This document shows, in pieces, positions 6,384-34,897 of a stretch of DNA of 36,687 nt. The notes beneath the pieces are model-generated. The model ran no database searches, had not been told where the DNA came from, and saw only the letters and a list, made by a program, of their open reading frames with translations. The DNA comes from Oscillospiraceae bacterium (GTDB lineage Bacteria > Bacillota > Clostridia > Oscillospirales > Oscillospiraceae). The position numbers were made by a program, and so were the translations under genes. Numbering within the stretch: position 1 is the stretch's first letter; every line of letters starts with the position of its first letter. The stretch spans positions 1 through 36,687 of the forward strand of contig JAGBBD010000068.1 of the NCBI GenBank assembly GCA_017938625.1, written 5' to 3'.

Positions 6384-6723
6384 GGTGCTTCCTTCTTTCC
6401 AGCAGCCGGGTGATCACCATGGCAAGAAGCCCAATGAGAAGATACCCGGCGGCATAAATATAAAGCTCCGGCACAAATTCTGCCACGCAGACACAGAAGC
6501 ACAGAGGCATGGCGGCTGCTGCGGCAACAGGCATCCACCAAAGACGCGGCAGATCTGTTCCTGCGAGTACGCCCACGACTGCGCAGATCAGAGGATCTGC
6601 GGCAAAGAACAGAAGAAAGCAGATGCTCATGCCTGCCATACCGGCAAAGGTCACAGACAGAAAGGGAATGAGCAAAAACGCAGTCAGACAAAGACCGGCG
6701 GACAGTAAAAGCTTTCTTTTCAT
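6361..6723 (-). CDS. Hypothetical polytopic membrane protein
   Basis: A 120-residue very hydrophobic protein with about four membrane segments (residues roughly 5-25, 28-58, 62-85 and 88-110) and a charged C-terminal tail (RLLERRKHHDESRAE). The family was not recognised. Its ATG overlaps the stop codon of the upstream GTPase gene by 4 bases (ATGA), and the GTPase's last codons contain the ggaggg ribosome-binding site, so it is very likely made in step with the GTPase. Shown to be a gene by this coupling rather than by homology. Confidence 0.6.
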   Translation of the reverse strand: MKRKLLLSAGLCLTAFLLIPFLSVTFAGMAGMSICFLLFFAADPLICAVVGVLAGTDLPRLWWMPVAAAAAMPLCFCVCVAEFVPELYIYAAGYLLIGLLAMVITRLLERRKHHDESRAE

Positions 6724-9260
6724 CCATTTCCCTCCTGCAAGAATGCCCGGATGGCCTGCTCCACCATGTCCACTTCCCGGCGGAAGTTTTCTGCGCTGAT
6801 CCGCTGGGCGCCATGGCCCAGAATGATGATCTGCTCCAGTCCATCGGAGGTGGCCACTCGGACGCGGTGCTTTTTGCCAAGCTCGTGGGTCACGCGCTCA
6901 ATATACATATCGGCAGTTTCCGCTTCCTTGGTGTAGACCACACTGAGGCCGCCGAAGTGCTCGATGGAGCCGGGATTGTTTTTCACCTTGTAGGCGTCAA
7001 AAACCACAATGACCGGGTGCTGACGGAAGCCCTGATAGTTGCGCAGCAGGTCGATCAGACGGGCGCGTGCCATGTCTAAGTTCTCCTGCCCCAGCTTTTT
7101 CAGATCATCCCACGCGAAAATGATGTTGTAGCCGTCCACCAGCAGATACTCGGGGCCCTCCGGCTGAGGCTTTGCTTTATATTTTTTGTCCTGCAGTTCA
7201 TGTCTGGCAGGCTTGAAAGCGGTGCGCTGATCGGTCTTGATAGGGCCGTAGGTGCGCTCAAAGATCTGCAGCAGCTCCTTGTCTGTGGCGACCATGGAGC
7301 AGTATTCCCGGGCAAGATCGCGCATGGGCGGCTCGTCCTTTTCTTCTTCCAGACACGACGGCAGATGCATATGGTTTTTGACCTCGTTCCACCTGACGGT
7401 GTAGCCTGCGCCGTGGGAGCAGAACACGCTGTCCGGGGTATTTTCCAGATCGGCTTCCGGGTCGTAAGCAAATTCCGCCACGATCTTCTCTTGATCCTTG
7501 CAGGGGGCGTAGCCCTTGAGAGAGCAGGAGAATCTGCCCAGACCTCTTGTGTAGGATACCACCTGCTGGGGGTATTCCTCCATGGCAGATACAGGCGCAG
7601 AGCCTGTGAGCACCGCAAACTCGCCCACGGTCTCGGGAGGATCAAACTGAGCACCCATCTGGTCAAGATCCGTCATGGCACGGCCCACATTCCCTTGGGG
7701 CACTTCCAGACGGAAGCTGTACCAAGGCTCCAAGAGAATGCTTTTGGCATGCATCAGACCGTGACGCACGGCCCGGTAGGTGCTCTGGCGGAAGTCGCCG
7801 CCCTCCGTGTGCTTCAGGTGGGCCTTGCCGGACATAAGGGTGATGGTCATATCGGTGATGGGAGAGCCTGTCAGCACACCGAGGTGCTGCTTTTCAGACA
7901 GATGTCCCATAATAAGCCGCTGCCAGTTTCTGTCCAAATCATCCTGATGACAGGCAGAGCGGAATACCAGTCCCGTGCCTGCAGGTGCAGGCTCCAAAAG
8001 CAGATGGACTTCCGCGTAGTGGCGCAGAGGCTCATAGTGCCCTACGCCTTCGGCGGCAGAGGCGATGGTCTCTTTATACAAAATGCTCCCCTGAGAGAAG
8101 GTAACGGCCAGGTCAAAGCGATCGAGCAGAGTCTGCTGCAGGATCTCCAATTGCACTGGGCCCATGAGCCGCACACGGATCTGCTGCAGATGGCTGTTCC
8201 AGTCCACATGCAGCTGGGGATCTTCCTCCTCCAGCTGACGAAGCTGCAAAAGCGCCTTCTGCACATCGCAGCCCTCCGGCAGGATCAGACGGTAGGTGAG
8301 CACCGGCTCCAGCACAGGGGGCTGGCCCTGCTGTTCTATGCCAAGTCCCAGACCGGGCATGGTCCGCGTCAGACCGGACACTGCCACCACATCGCCGGGG
8401 AGGGCTTCATCTGCGGCTGTAAACTTAGCCCCGGAGTAGACACGCAGCTGGGTCACTTTTTCTTCCCAACCGTCGCCGGTGAGGACTTCGCGCACCTTCA
8501 GCCGCCCGGAGGTGACCTTCAGATGGGTCAGACGGACGCCCTGTTCATCCCGGGAGATCTTAAAGACCTTTGCACCGAAGGCATCCGTTCCTTCGCAGAC
8601 CGGGATATAGTGATCCAGCGCCTGCATAAAATCTTCCACGCCCTCTAATTTCAGCGCTGCACCAAACCAGCAGGGGAAAAGGGTGCCTGCATGAATGGCA
8701 GCTTTGACAGCCTCATCCGATACATCGCCTGTTTCCAGAAATTCTTCCAGCAGCTGCTCACTGCCCATGGCAAGGGTCTCCTTGTCGGGATCGGAAAGCT
8801 CGGCGAAGGTACCGCCCAGATCACGGCGCAGCTCGTGGAGGATCTCCTGCTTTTCTCTGCCGGGCAGATCCATTTTATTGATAAACACAAAGGTGGGAAT
8901 GTTCCGCTGACGCAGCAGCCGCCACAGGGTCACTGTGTGGCTCTGGATACCGGCAGGGCCGCTGATGACCACAATGGCGCAGTCCAGCACATCCAGCGTC
9001 CGCTCCATTTCGGCAGAAAAGTCCACATGTCCCGGTGTATCCAGTAAGGTTGCCTGCACATTGGGCAGGGTCAAGATCGCCTGCTTGGAAAAAATGGTGA
9101 TGCCTCGTTTTCGCTCCAAGGCAAAGGTATCCAGAAAGGCATTGCCGTGATCCACCCGCCCGAAGTTTCGAATCGAGCCGGAAATATAGAGCATGGCTTC
9201 GGAAAGAGTGGTCTTTCCTGCATCCACGTGGGCAAAAACGCCGATGACAGATCGTTTCAT
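6720..9260 (-). CDS. EF-G/TetM-like translational GTPase fused to Rae1/YacP-type NYN ribonuclease
   Basis: An 846-residue protein. Residues 1 to about 640 are an EF-G-superfamily GTPase of the ribosomal-protection type: G1 AHVDAGKT (10-17), switch RKRGITIFS, G3 DTPGHVDF, G4 NKMD, then domains II-V. The domain IV loop that in TetM (YSPVST) displaces tetracycline is different here (around KHTEGGDF), so tetracycline resistance is not supported. After a charged linker, residues about 705-846 are a NYN domain very like Bacillus Rae1/YacP: LLVDGYN (Asp709), VVFDA, TKEAETAD, VATSDGLEQ, GHGAQRISA. Rae1 cuts mRNA in the ribosomal A site. The start at 9260 is chosen because aggag lies 6 bases upstream; an ATG at 9275 would put that site inside the gene. 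First gene of a three-gene operon. Confidence 0.88.
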   Translation of the reverse strand: MKRSVIGVFAHVDAGKTTLSEAMLYISGSIRNFGRVDHGNAFLDTFALERKRGITIFSKQAILTLPNVQATLLDTPGHVDFSAEMERTLDVLDCAIVVISGPAGIQSHTVTLWRLLRQRNIPTFVFINKMDLPGREKQEILHELRRDLGGTFAELSDPDKETLAMGSEQLLEEFLETGDVSDEAVKAAIHAGTLFPCWFGAALKLEGVEDFMQALDHYIPVCEGTDAFGAKVFKISRDEQGVRLTHLKVTSGRLKVREVLTGDGWEEKVTQLRVYSGAKFTAADEALPGDVVAVSGLTRTMPGLGLGIEQQGQPPVLEPVLTYRLILPEGCDVQKALLQLRQLEEEDPQLHVDWNSHLQQIRVRLMGPVQLEILQQTLLDRFDLAVTFSQGSILYKETIASAAEGVGHYEPLRHYAEVHLLLEPAPAGTGLVFRSACHQDDLDRNWQRLIMGHLSEKQHLGVLTGSPITDMTITLMSGKAHLKHTEGGDFRQSTYRAVRHGLMHAKSILLEPWYSFRLEVPQGNVGRAMTDLDQMGAQFDPPETVGEFAVLTGSAPVSAMEEYPQQVVSYTRGLGRFSCSLKGYAPCKDQEKIVAEFAYDPEADLENTPDSVFCSHGAGYTVRWNEVKNHMHLPSCLEEEKDEPPMRDLAREYCSMVATDKELLQIFERTYGPIKTDQRTAFKPARHELQDKKYKAKPQPEGPEYLLVDGYNIIFAWDDLKKLGQENLDMARARLIDLLRNYQGFRQHPVIVVFDAYKVKNNPGSIEHFGGLSVVYTKEAETADMYIERVTHELGKKHRVRVATSDGLEQIIILGHGAQRISAENFRREVDMVEQAIRAFLQEGNG

Positions 9261-9289
9261 AGCATTCTCCTGCATTGATTTCTAAGACG

Positions 9290-9318
9290 ATTTTATCATA
9301 CAGCCAATGATTTTTCAA
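9290..9318 (-). promoter_or_regulatory. Putative promoter of the GTPase-nuclease operon
   Basis: On the minus strand TTGAAA (9313-9318) and TAAAAT (9290-9295) are spaced by 17 bp, each with 5 of 6 consensus matches. The -35 box falls in the foot of the terminator hairpin of the upstream SPFH operon. Confidence 0.65.
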
Positions 9319-10725: not shown

Positions 10726-12765
10726 ATGCATTGGTCTGAAAAGATCGCAGCGGATATCGTTGCCAGAAGACCCGACAAGGAAGAATACGTCTGCGCCGCA
10801 GGCATCAGTCCTTCCGGCTCTGTTCACATCGGTAATTTCCGCGATGTAGCGACCAGTTATTTTGTAGTCCGCGCTCTGCAGAAGATGGGCAAGAAGGCCC
10901 GTCTGCTGTTCAGCTGGGACGAGTATGACCGCTGCCGCAAGATTCCCGTCAATGTCCGTAATGTGGTGGGAGATGCTTACGATAAGTATATCGGCAGCCC
11001 CTATGTAGACATCCCCGATCCCTGGGGTTGTCATGAGAACTATGCCCAGCACTTCGAGGAAGAGTTCTTCGTTTCCATGGAGAAGTTCGGCATTCCGCTG
11101 GACTGCCGCTATCAGGCTGCCATGTACAGAGAGGGCAAGTACCGTGATGACATTCTGGAAGCCATCCACAAGCGCGGCGAGATCTTCGAGATTCTTGACT
11201 CCTTCAAGACCAAGGACAAGTCTCTGTCTGAGGAAGAACTGAAGGCCCAGCACGATGCCGACAAGGCCAAGTACTATCCTGTGAGCATTTTCTGCGAAGA
11301 GTGCGGCACGGATTTTACCACCATCGATGCTCTGAGTGACGACGAGACCGAAGCCGATTACACCTGTACTCGCTGCGGTCACAAGGCACATTTTGATTTC
11401 AAGACCAACACCAACTGCAAGCTGGGCTGGAAGGTCGACTGGCCCATGCGTTGGCGCTATGAGGGCGTGGACTTTGAACCGGGCGGCAAGGATCATGCTG
11501 CACCTACCGGCTCTTACAACAACGGCAAGGTCATCGCCAAGAAGATCTTTGACTTTGAAGCACCCATCTTCCAGGGCTATGAGTTCATCGGCATCCGCGG
11601 CTCTACGGGCAAGATGTCCGGCTCCACCGGCCTTAATCTGACACCCGATACCCTTTTGAAGCTGTATCAGCCCGAGGTCATTCTGTGGCTGTATTCCAAG
11701 ACCGAGCCTACCCGCGCCTTTGACTTCTGCTTTGATGACGGCATTCTCAAGCAGTACTTTGAGTTTGACCGTATGCTGGATGCCTGCCGCAGCGGCAAGG
11801 CAGACGAGCAGATGCAGGCCGTTATGTATAACTGCACCGTTGGTGATCGTCAGGTCAACACCGTTCCCATGAGCCTGCTGGTGCAGATGGGCTCCGTGGT
11901 GGACTTCAATGTGCCCATGCTGGAGACTGTGTTCGAAAAGATCGGCACGCCCTTCAAGGAAGCCGACTTTGCCGACCGTCTGGAGCGGGCAAAGTTCTGG
12001 CTGGAGCAGTGTGCGCCCGATCAGGTCAACCGTCTGCGTCAGGGCAGAAACTGGGAGGTCTATGAGGCACTCTCGGAGCAGGAAAAGCAGGAGATCGCAG
12101 ATCTGCATGCCTATCTTGCCAAGGGCGGCTATACGCTGGAAGAACTGAACACCGCCATCTATGCCATCCCCGCCAAGGCAAGAGGTCTGGAGCAGGGCAG
12201 CAAGGAACTGAAGGCAGCACAGGGCGAGTTCTTCAAGACGGTCTATAAGCTGCTCATCGACAAGGAACGCGGTCCTCGTCTGTATCTGTTCCTGTATGCC
12301 ATCGAGACCGAACGCTATCTGAAACTGCTGGACTTCTCCACCCCCATGACTGAGGAAGAGGCTAAGAAGCCCGAAGTCGTAGAAGAGGTGGTGGAAGAGA
12401 AGGTCTACGGCGATCCCGATCCCGTGGAGCCTGTGAAGCCTGAGATCGATATCGATTACTTCGGCGGTCTCGATCTGCGTGTGTGCAAGATCGTCAAGGC
12501 ACAGGAAATCCGTAAGAGCGCCAACTGTCTGAAGCTGACGCTGGATGACGGCATCGGTGAGCGTGTGATCGTCTCCTCCATCAAGCACGACTACAAGTGT
12601 GAAGAGCTGGTGGGAAAGAAGATCATCGTGGTGGCAAACCTGAAGCCCCATCGTATCACCGGCGTGACCAGTCAGGGTATGCTGCTGGCAGGTACCAACA
12701 ATGCCTGCGGCTGCAAGGTCATTTTTGTTGACGATATGATCCCCTGCGGCACCCAGATCAAATAA
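10726..12765 (+). CDS. lysK: Class I lysyl-tRNA synthetase with C-terminal tRNA-binding OB domain
   Basis: A 679-residue protein that charges tRNA-Lys. It carries the class I LysRS signatures: HIGN at 34-37 (SPSGSVHIGNF), KMSGS from K296, the family stretch WPMRWRYEGVDFEPGGKDH, and the helical C-terminal region ending with YKLLIDKERGPRLYLFL. Two Cys pairs (C190/C193 and C214/C217) suggest a zinc knuckle. Ordinary LysRS1 ends near residue 545. Here an acidic/Pro linker (VVEEVVEEKVYGDPDPVEPV) leads to about 100 residues of an EMAP-II/Trbp111-like OB fold (DYFGGLDLRVCKIVKAQEI..., GERVIVSSIKHDY, KPHRITGVTSQGMLLAG), the type seen at the C-terminus of MetRS. Class I LysRS is archaeal-type and occurs in only some bacteria. 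Strong codon bias agrees with high expression. Confidence 0.93.
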   Translation: MHWSEKIAADIVARRPDKEEYVCAAGISPSGSVHIGNFRDVATSYFVVRALQKMGKKARLLFSWDEYDRCRKIPVNVRNVVGDAYDKYIGSPYVDIPDPWGCHENYAQHFEEEFFVSMEKFGIPLDCRYQAAMYREGKYRDDILEAIHKRGEIFEILDSFKTKDKSLSEEELKAQHDADKAKYYPVSIFCEECGTDFTTIDALSDDETEADYTCTRCGHKAHFDFKTNTNCKLGWKVDWPMRWRYEGVDFEPGGKDHAAPTGSYNNGKVIAKKIFDFEAPIFQGYEFIGIRGSTGKMSGSTGLNLTPDTLLKLYQPEVILWLYSKTEPTRAFDFCFDDGILKQYFEFDRMLDACRSGKADEQMQAVMYNCTVGDRQVNTVPMSLLVQMGSVVDFNVPMLETVFEKIGTPFKEADFADRLERAKFWLEQCAPDQVNRLRQGRNWEVYEALSEQEKQEIADLHAYLAKGGYTLEELNTAIYAIPAKARGLEQGSKELKAAQGEFFKTVYKLLIDKERGPRLYLFLYAIETERYLKLLDFSTPMTEEEAKKPEVVEEVVEEKVYGDPDPVEPVKPEIDIDYFGGLDLRVCKIVKAQEIRKSANCLKLTLDDGIGERVIVSSIKHDYKCEELVGKKIIVVANLKPHRITGVTSQGMLLAGTNNACGCKVIFVDDMIPCGTQIK

Positions 12766-34625: not shown

Positions 34626-34864
34626 CTCTGGAGAATCTCACCTCGCGTAACCACTGAATAAATCGTCTGCGGTTGCCAGCGGATCTTTTGTCTCAACTAT
34701 GCGGTTTGAAAAGCTTGAAATACACAAAGTATTTCGGCGTTTTCAAAACCTTTATTTGATTCAAAATCTCTCGCTGTCCACTCTTGTCGATTTAATCATC
34801 GGTTACTTGCGTGAGTGCCGAAGGTGCAAGGCGAAAGCCGAATCTCTCAGGCAAAAGGACAGAG
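34626..34864 (+). promoter_or_regulatory. Glycine riboswitch (gcvT motif), single aptamer with extended P3 arm
   Basis: The 3' half has the aptamer core: tgccgaaggtgcaaggcg, then gaatctctcaggcaaaag and gacagag (34816-34864). The 5' half ctctggagaatctcac starts at 34626 and pairs with it: ctctg with cagag (P1), ggaga with tctct, and ctcac (P3) with gtgag (34811-34815). Between the P3 strands, gtaacc (34647-34652) pairs with ggttac (34801-34806), and about 148 bases are inserted, including a hairpin with gtttgaaaag and cttttgaaaac-like arms (34704-34748). Only one full aptamer is seen; the small hairpin at 34592-34617 may be the remnant of a second. It controls the AGCS symporter. Confidence 0.88.
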
Positions 34865-34897
34865 CGGCTGTGGGGCGACCTATGGCTGCAAACTTTG

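Follow-up and report, generated by a model that had tools for sequence, protein, structure and literature searches.

A translational GTPase carrying a Rae1-type NYN domain appears to have displaced free-standing Rae1 in Clostridia

The stretch of DNA analysed here (the window: 36,687 nucleotides, contig JAGBBD010000068.1 of an Oscillospiraceae bacterium) carries on its minus strand, at 6720..9260 with the stop codon included, a gene for an 846-residue protein in which a translational GTPase is followed by a NYN nuclease domain of the Rae1/YacP type. Judged by gene content and locus comparison, this fusion appears to have displaced the free-standing rae1 gene in these Clostridia, and we consider it rather more probable than otherwise that the fusion protein is the form Rae1 takes in this lineage, carried by a ribosome-binding type of GTPase. 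The architecture itself is already in print: excerpts of Atkinson 2015 (PMC4342817) report a YacP-like NYN domain in the Tet proteins of ten Clostridiales species. What is new here is its wide distribution, its probable single origin and the displacement of free Rae1. In literature searches aimed at the fusion, whose coverage did not extend to a 2018 paper on Rae1 distribution, PMC4342817 alone describes it; the main text of PMC8547433 contained none of the fusion terms, and PMC11452824 concerns fusA.

The reading frame starts with an ATG at 9260, has AGGAGA just 5' of this codon and stops at 6720; a second in-frame ATG at 9275 is a possible alternative start. Its G domain (residues 5-220; 8601..9248, minus strand, like all parts of the gene) bears the motifs AHVDAGKTT, DTPGH and NKMD and matches Pfam GTP_EFTU with 163.9 bits. 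EF-G-like domains II, III, IV and V follow at about residues 230-590 (7491..8573), with 33.7 bits for EF-G_D2, 53.6 for EFG_IV and 60.0 for EFG_C, while EFG_III reaches 25.2 bits, under its cut-off of 27.0. The P-loop, the switch II motif DTPGH and NKxD are invariant or nearly so in 38 aligned fusions (three of 40 fetched regions were dropped: the free-standing L054, L059, which the pattern missed, and L075, cut by a contig end). With its G motifs and domains II-V, domain III being below cut-off, the protein belongs to the translational GTPases of the EF2/EF-G superfamily. The closest solved chains for its first 599 residues are TetO (236 bits) and TetM (223 bits).

The NYN domain occupies residues 706-846 (6723..7145). 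NYN_YacP (PF05991) matches residues 706-842 with 162.8 bits against a cut-off of 24.6, and the closest solved chain is YacP/Rae1 of Bacillus subtilis (5mq8/5mq9, 85.4 bits), in which residue 7, counted along the alignment, corresponds to D709. Four acidic residues, D709, D755, D784 and D806, are invariant across all 71 fused rows (two of which, L098 and L210, are one gene) and all 39 free-standing NYN rows. The original prediction, made from the letters of the DNA, had seen an EF-G/TetM-like GTPase joined to a Rae1/YacP-type NYN domain and proposed a profile search for the latter; Pfam, solved relatives, G motifs and acidic residues all agree with it. Nor is the fusion an artefact, because more than 100 other genomes encode it in a single open frame, and domain IV and the NYN motif share a frame in 78 of 80 named loci; in the remaining two the locus stops soon after the GTPase match.

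Between the two halves lie a GTPase C-terminal extension (about residues 591-638; 7347..7490), with the pattern SVFCxHGxGxxVxWxxVxxxMH and a CxH...HxH motif that may be a metal site, and a variable linker (about residues 639-703; 7152..7346), in which ELxxIFxRTYG is partly conserved and whose length is 70 residues in the window protein against a median of 75. The extension sits after domain V, and relatives devoid of NYN end within it or shortly past it, so it belongs to the GTPase, the NYN domain having been added behind the linker. Domain IV, the part that enters the A site in TetM and EF-G, is the best conserved region of the 38 fusions, with a mean frequency of the commonest residue of 0.83, compared with 0.77 for the first 150 residues and 0.67 for NYN. 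In ten pairs dN is well below dS in both halves (several dS values exceed 1, and the direction alone is safe), which is a sign of purifying selection on the GTPase half and the NYN half alike.

A survey of how far the fusion has spread, proposed together with the prediction, found it in 136 of the 393 genomes of the window's class. This number comprises 135 genomes and G190, where one in-frame stop (L245) interrupts the GTPase part and the NYN part is open; in nine of the 136 the gene is truncated at a contig end, divided between frames or interrupted (G044, G062, G071, G156, G172, G185, G190, G235, G295). Named carriers are Ruminococcus flavefaciens (L150, L155), Intestinimonas butyriciproducens (L140) and many uncultured Oscillospiraceae, and further ones are Monoglobus pectinilyticus and Agathobacter rectalis (933 residues, NYN present). 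A frame of 668 amino acids in Subdoligranulum stops without the NYN motif. Of the 393 genomes, 28 have a GTPase relative lacking NYN, as do 19 of 200 genomes in G688's class, which we take to be Bacilli. Such relatives are also found on many plasmid records of Ligilactobacillus salivarius, and the GTPase family is thus not confined to chromosomes. A statement that family members are never on plasmids would be wrong, since L. salivarius megaplasmids hold NYN-less copies and large replicons of Monoglobus and Agathobacter hold the fusion. On one L. salivarius megaplasmid (L358, 2435-4825) the NYN-less gene adjoins rpsN, encoding ribosomal protein S14; in Limosilactobacillus fermentum DR9 (L096, 3000-4900) a NYN-less homologue is split into two frames; gpsB lies upstream of it, and genes for NUDIX and RNA methyltransferase proteins follow downstream.

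Genomes with the fusion rarely keep another Rae1. A second, complete rae1 was found in one of the 136 (G284), so the expected lack of a separate gene holds in 135; G120, G174 and G208 show weak 21-bit matches under the family cut-off and G370 broken pieces. In the whole class, 245 of 250 positive genomes, the window's included, have one PF05991 match each.

The canonical locus of the free gene is mrnC-rlmB-rae1-sigH. We compared it in 34 fused genomes, picked by hand and not at random, and in six controls fetched from 16 genomes with free-standing rae1. Five of the six controls have rlmB and sigH on either side of rae1, although rlmB is some way off in G072; in the remaining control, G209, the NYN sits elsewhere. 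Of the other ten free-standing genomes, eight have rae1 at most 60 nt from rlmB, G117 has it at about 3 kb and G095 on a different contig. sigH stands beside rlmB in 21 of the 34 fused genomes, and in these 21 loci rae1 is intact once (G284), a clear remnant four times and gone or not clearly traceable 16 times. The remnants, all on the same strand, score 57.8 bits (G370), 53.1 (G022), 42.4 (G097) and 36.6 (G344), each beating all 100 shuffles of its own gap, the highest of which gave 25.0. Weak excesses in G299 (25.8 bits; highest shuffle 20.8) and G116 (23.9; 20.0) were not counted, and three rlmB-sigH gaps were too short for this comparison. A single family, f51, spans all states: intact in G284, decayed in G097 and G344, no clear trace in G299, G238 and G191. 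Such a mixture is expected if the fusion makes the free gene redundant.

Two further comparisons added little. In the class of G688 all 19 genomes with the NYN-less GTPase have YacP, which might have served as a Rosetta-stone argument, but so do 195 of 200 genomes overall, and we rejected it. In the window's class a free rae1 is present in 21 of 28 NYN-less genomes versus 94 of 230 (naive Fisher p 0.001), a comparison that ignores kinship, counts G190 and the outlier G376 among the 230 and is given little weight.

The origin of the fusion was examined in trees, which were quick searches without bootstrap. In the NYN tree (110 rows) the 71 fused rows and the free-standing L027 fall on one side (SH-aLRT 97). 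The first GTPase tree (88 rows, L122 dropped) places 63 fused rows on one side (SH-aLRT 93) and gave a long-branch warning for OtrA and an Enterococcus GTP-binding protein. The second tree (81 rows) was built without these two; the rows left out of it or not carried over to it were 30 fused ones, six further near-copies and two references. In it 34 fused rows form one clade (SH-aLRT 100). The fused clade has its nearest neighbours in NYN-less proteins from two genomes of the window's order, G178 and G288, which have no PF05991 match (SH-aLRT 98). The second tree also separates the whole family (73 rows) from TetM, TetO and EF-G (SH-aLRT 100), the Tet group being represented by TetM, TetO and two Paenibacillus-like proteins, with no others. 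The simplest reading is a single fusion event. The trees favour one origin, from NYN-less relatives lying outside TetM/TetO. Just outside the family branch two Tet-like proteins (L350, L261), which have an EHTHGGDFR loop and are devoid of the usual C-terminal extension.

This position in the tree bears on the suggestion of Atkinson 2015 that such proteins shield the ribosome from tetracycline, or from another compound acting at the A site, the RNase being a second line of action; PMC4342817 states that NYN-bearing Tet proteins may show a resistance mechanism involving RNase activity. TetO and TetM are indeed the best solved relatives, and some family members are annotated as 'TetM/TetW/TetO/TetS family'. 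The fusion nevertheless scores 402.8 bits with NCBIfam tet_protect, below the cut-off of 775, and stands in a separate clade. Its domain IV loop III (residues 478-491; 7788..7829; GKAHLKHTEGGDFR) differs from that of TetM (YSPVS) and of EF-G. It is as long as TetM's in the alignment, its letters differing throughout the rows compared, and follows the consensus G-[RK]-A-H-x-K-H-T-x-G-G-D-F-R, in which T485 is invariant (64 of 64 fused rows, 19 of 19 NYN-less rows). Where TetM has Pro509, the window protein has K483; Lys stands there in 55 of the 64 fused rows, whose four commonest letters do not include P; NYN-less rows carry Glu, Lys or Gln. It had been argued from this loop that the protein would not release tetracycline. 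The difference from TetM stands, but the conclusion is loosened, because the TetM triple mutant S508A P509A V510A is reported active in PMC4750697: TetM tolerates loop III changes, and loop letters alone do not exclude drug release. Excerpts of PMC5209696 further report that a chromosomal TetM-like protein of Bacillus toyonensis (Btoyo_0322; 647 residues by coordinates), which may or may not belong to the fusion's GTPase family, confers tetracycline resistance. Against protection speak also the neighbouring genes, which are not conserved (any one is shared by at most six of 69 loci, these being the 80 named loci less 11 in which the pattern found no GTPase frame over 500 residues), and a promoter-like site, TTGAAA-17-TAAAAT, at 9290..9318 of the minus strand, a consensus match alone, which lies about 30 nt 5' of the start codon and leaves little room for a leader. 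Drug protection, finally, would not explain the loss of separate rae1. We found no phenotype data for any fused member, and regard a tetracycline role as less likely and, as an account of the whole protein, improbable.

A different possibility is that one chain merely holds two independent activities, the GTPase acting like its NYN-less relatives and the NYN domain being an ordinary Rae1 without GTP control. The NYN-less relatives are common, as counted above, the linker is long and variable, and L027 is a free NYN that groups with fused ones. On the other hand, the fusion stayed intact across many families, and most fused NYN domains have no C-terminal LExxR tail, which would fit a handover of docking to the GTPase. 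This tail, a pattern defined for the present analysis and not a published criterion, occurs in four of 71 fused rows (in one or two of the four LExxR stands before the tail, not in it) versus 35 of 39 free-standing ones, and is absent from the window protein. The Rae1 C-terminus matters in B. subtilis, because R166P is among suppressors that, in passages of PMC6613710, the authors read as loss of function. We hold independent activities to be an unlikely account.

The functional idea of the original prediction, a GTPase that brings an A-site RNase to the ribosome, is the best reading. GTP-controlled delivery of NYN is plausible. Excerpts of PMC12320835 and PMC6613710 describe Rae1 as an endonuclease attacking mRNA in the A site, and PMC8161019 has TetM-like factors binding the A-site region. 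We propose that a Tet-like GTPase with its own C-terminal extension gained a Rae1 NYN domain, probably once, joined by a flexible linker some 70 residues long, and that the fused copy then would have made free-standing rae1 redundant. On a paused ribosome the GTPase would bind the factor site and place domain IV in the empty A site, and would so hold the NYN domain at the ribosome; the scarcity of the LExxR tail fits such a transfer of docking. Domain IV would then withdraw, probably after GTP hydrolysis, and the NYN domain would cut mRNA in the A site like B. subtilis Rae1. We infer the sequential action because NYN and domain IV could hardly share the A site; the Rae1-like activity, ribosome binding and GTP control are likewise inferred. 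In its full form, with the GTPase as delivery and timing device of an A-site endonuclease, GTP hydrolysis handing the A site to the tethered Rae1, and the whole a one-protein mRNA-cleavage and ribosome-rescue factor replacing free Rae1 across much of Clostridia, the proposal is tentative. Far less credible still is a third alternative, in which the GTPase would bring an enzyme of rRNA or tRNA maturation to the ribosome. It agrees with an early proposal for the NYN domain cited in PMC4342817, but later Rae1 work, as excerpted above, indicates A-site mRNA cleavage.

Several observations weigh against the proposed model or limit its support. Seven of the 28 genomes with a NYN-less relative have no PF05991 match; the GTPase must therefore have a role of its own, and the claim made in the prediction that it serves the nuclease is weakened. 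L027, found in G209, is a free-standing NYN grouping with the fused ones, so NYN may not need the GTPase. Replacement, moreover, suggests that NYN still has a function, but not that this function is under the control of the GTPase. The NYN stretch of the window protein, 145 residues, is shorter than most (medians 169 and 171). In 13 of the 34 fused genomes, the window's included, sigH is not near rlmB and the locus test is uninformative; no NYN match near rlmB was found in these 13. The window's genome has one YacP domain, that of the fusion, but is 71% complete, and the absence of a separate rae1 there is weak evidence. L027 itself may be a product of fission or a relic of the donor. It lies away from the canonical locus, and G209 also has a NYN-less GTPase (L255) outside the fused clade.

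A protein in which Rae1 is naturally joined to a GTPase of the A-site type offers a candidate answer to how Rae1 reaches the A site and to what decides the time of cutting. Annotation is affected too: proteins of gut commensals labelled as tetracycline resistance factors, for example in Agathobacter rectalis, may instead be mRNA-surveillance factors, and relabelling them would matter for resistome counts.

Other features of the window are all on the plus strand. Its left edge (1-454) holds the 3' end of 23S rRNA and a complete 5S rRNA. At 10726-12765 a class I lysyl-tRNA synthetase (PF01921, 361.5 bits) bears a C-terminal tRNA_bind domain (PF01588, 70 bits), an unusual combination for this enzyme. 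A glycine riboswitch aptamer at 34764-34872 scores 36.9, just over the Rfam gathering score of 32. It lies inside the first part of a predicted 548-residue frame, the real start of which is therefore probably downstream.

Among known systems, Rae1/YacP of B. subtilis (PF05991) has the same domain and acidic residues and is usually present in one copy per genome, and the fusion apparently replaces it at the canonical locus; the fusion differs in that its NYN domain sits behind a translational GTPase and most fused rows have no LExxR tail. Tet(M)/Tet(O), the best solved relatives, share EF-G-like domains I-V and a C-terminal extension, whereas the fusion is about 28-29% identical to them, falls under the tet_protect cut-off, has another loop III, forms a separate clade and carries a nuclease. 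The NYN-less 'translation factor GTPase family protein' of Bacilli, Lactobacillaceae and Clostridia is the same GTPase with the same loop III and C-terminal extension, without the NYN domain. The clostridial Tet-NYN proteins of Atkinson 2015, as excerpts of PMC4342817 present them, have the same architecture in ten Clostridiales species; they were read there as a possible resistance mechanism, and here the architecture is read as the probable form of Rae1 in this lineage.

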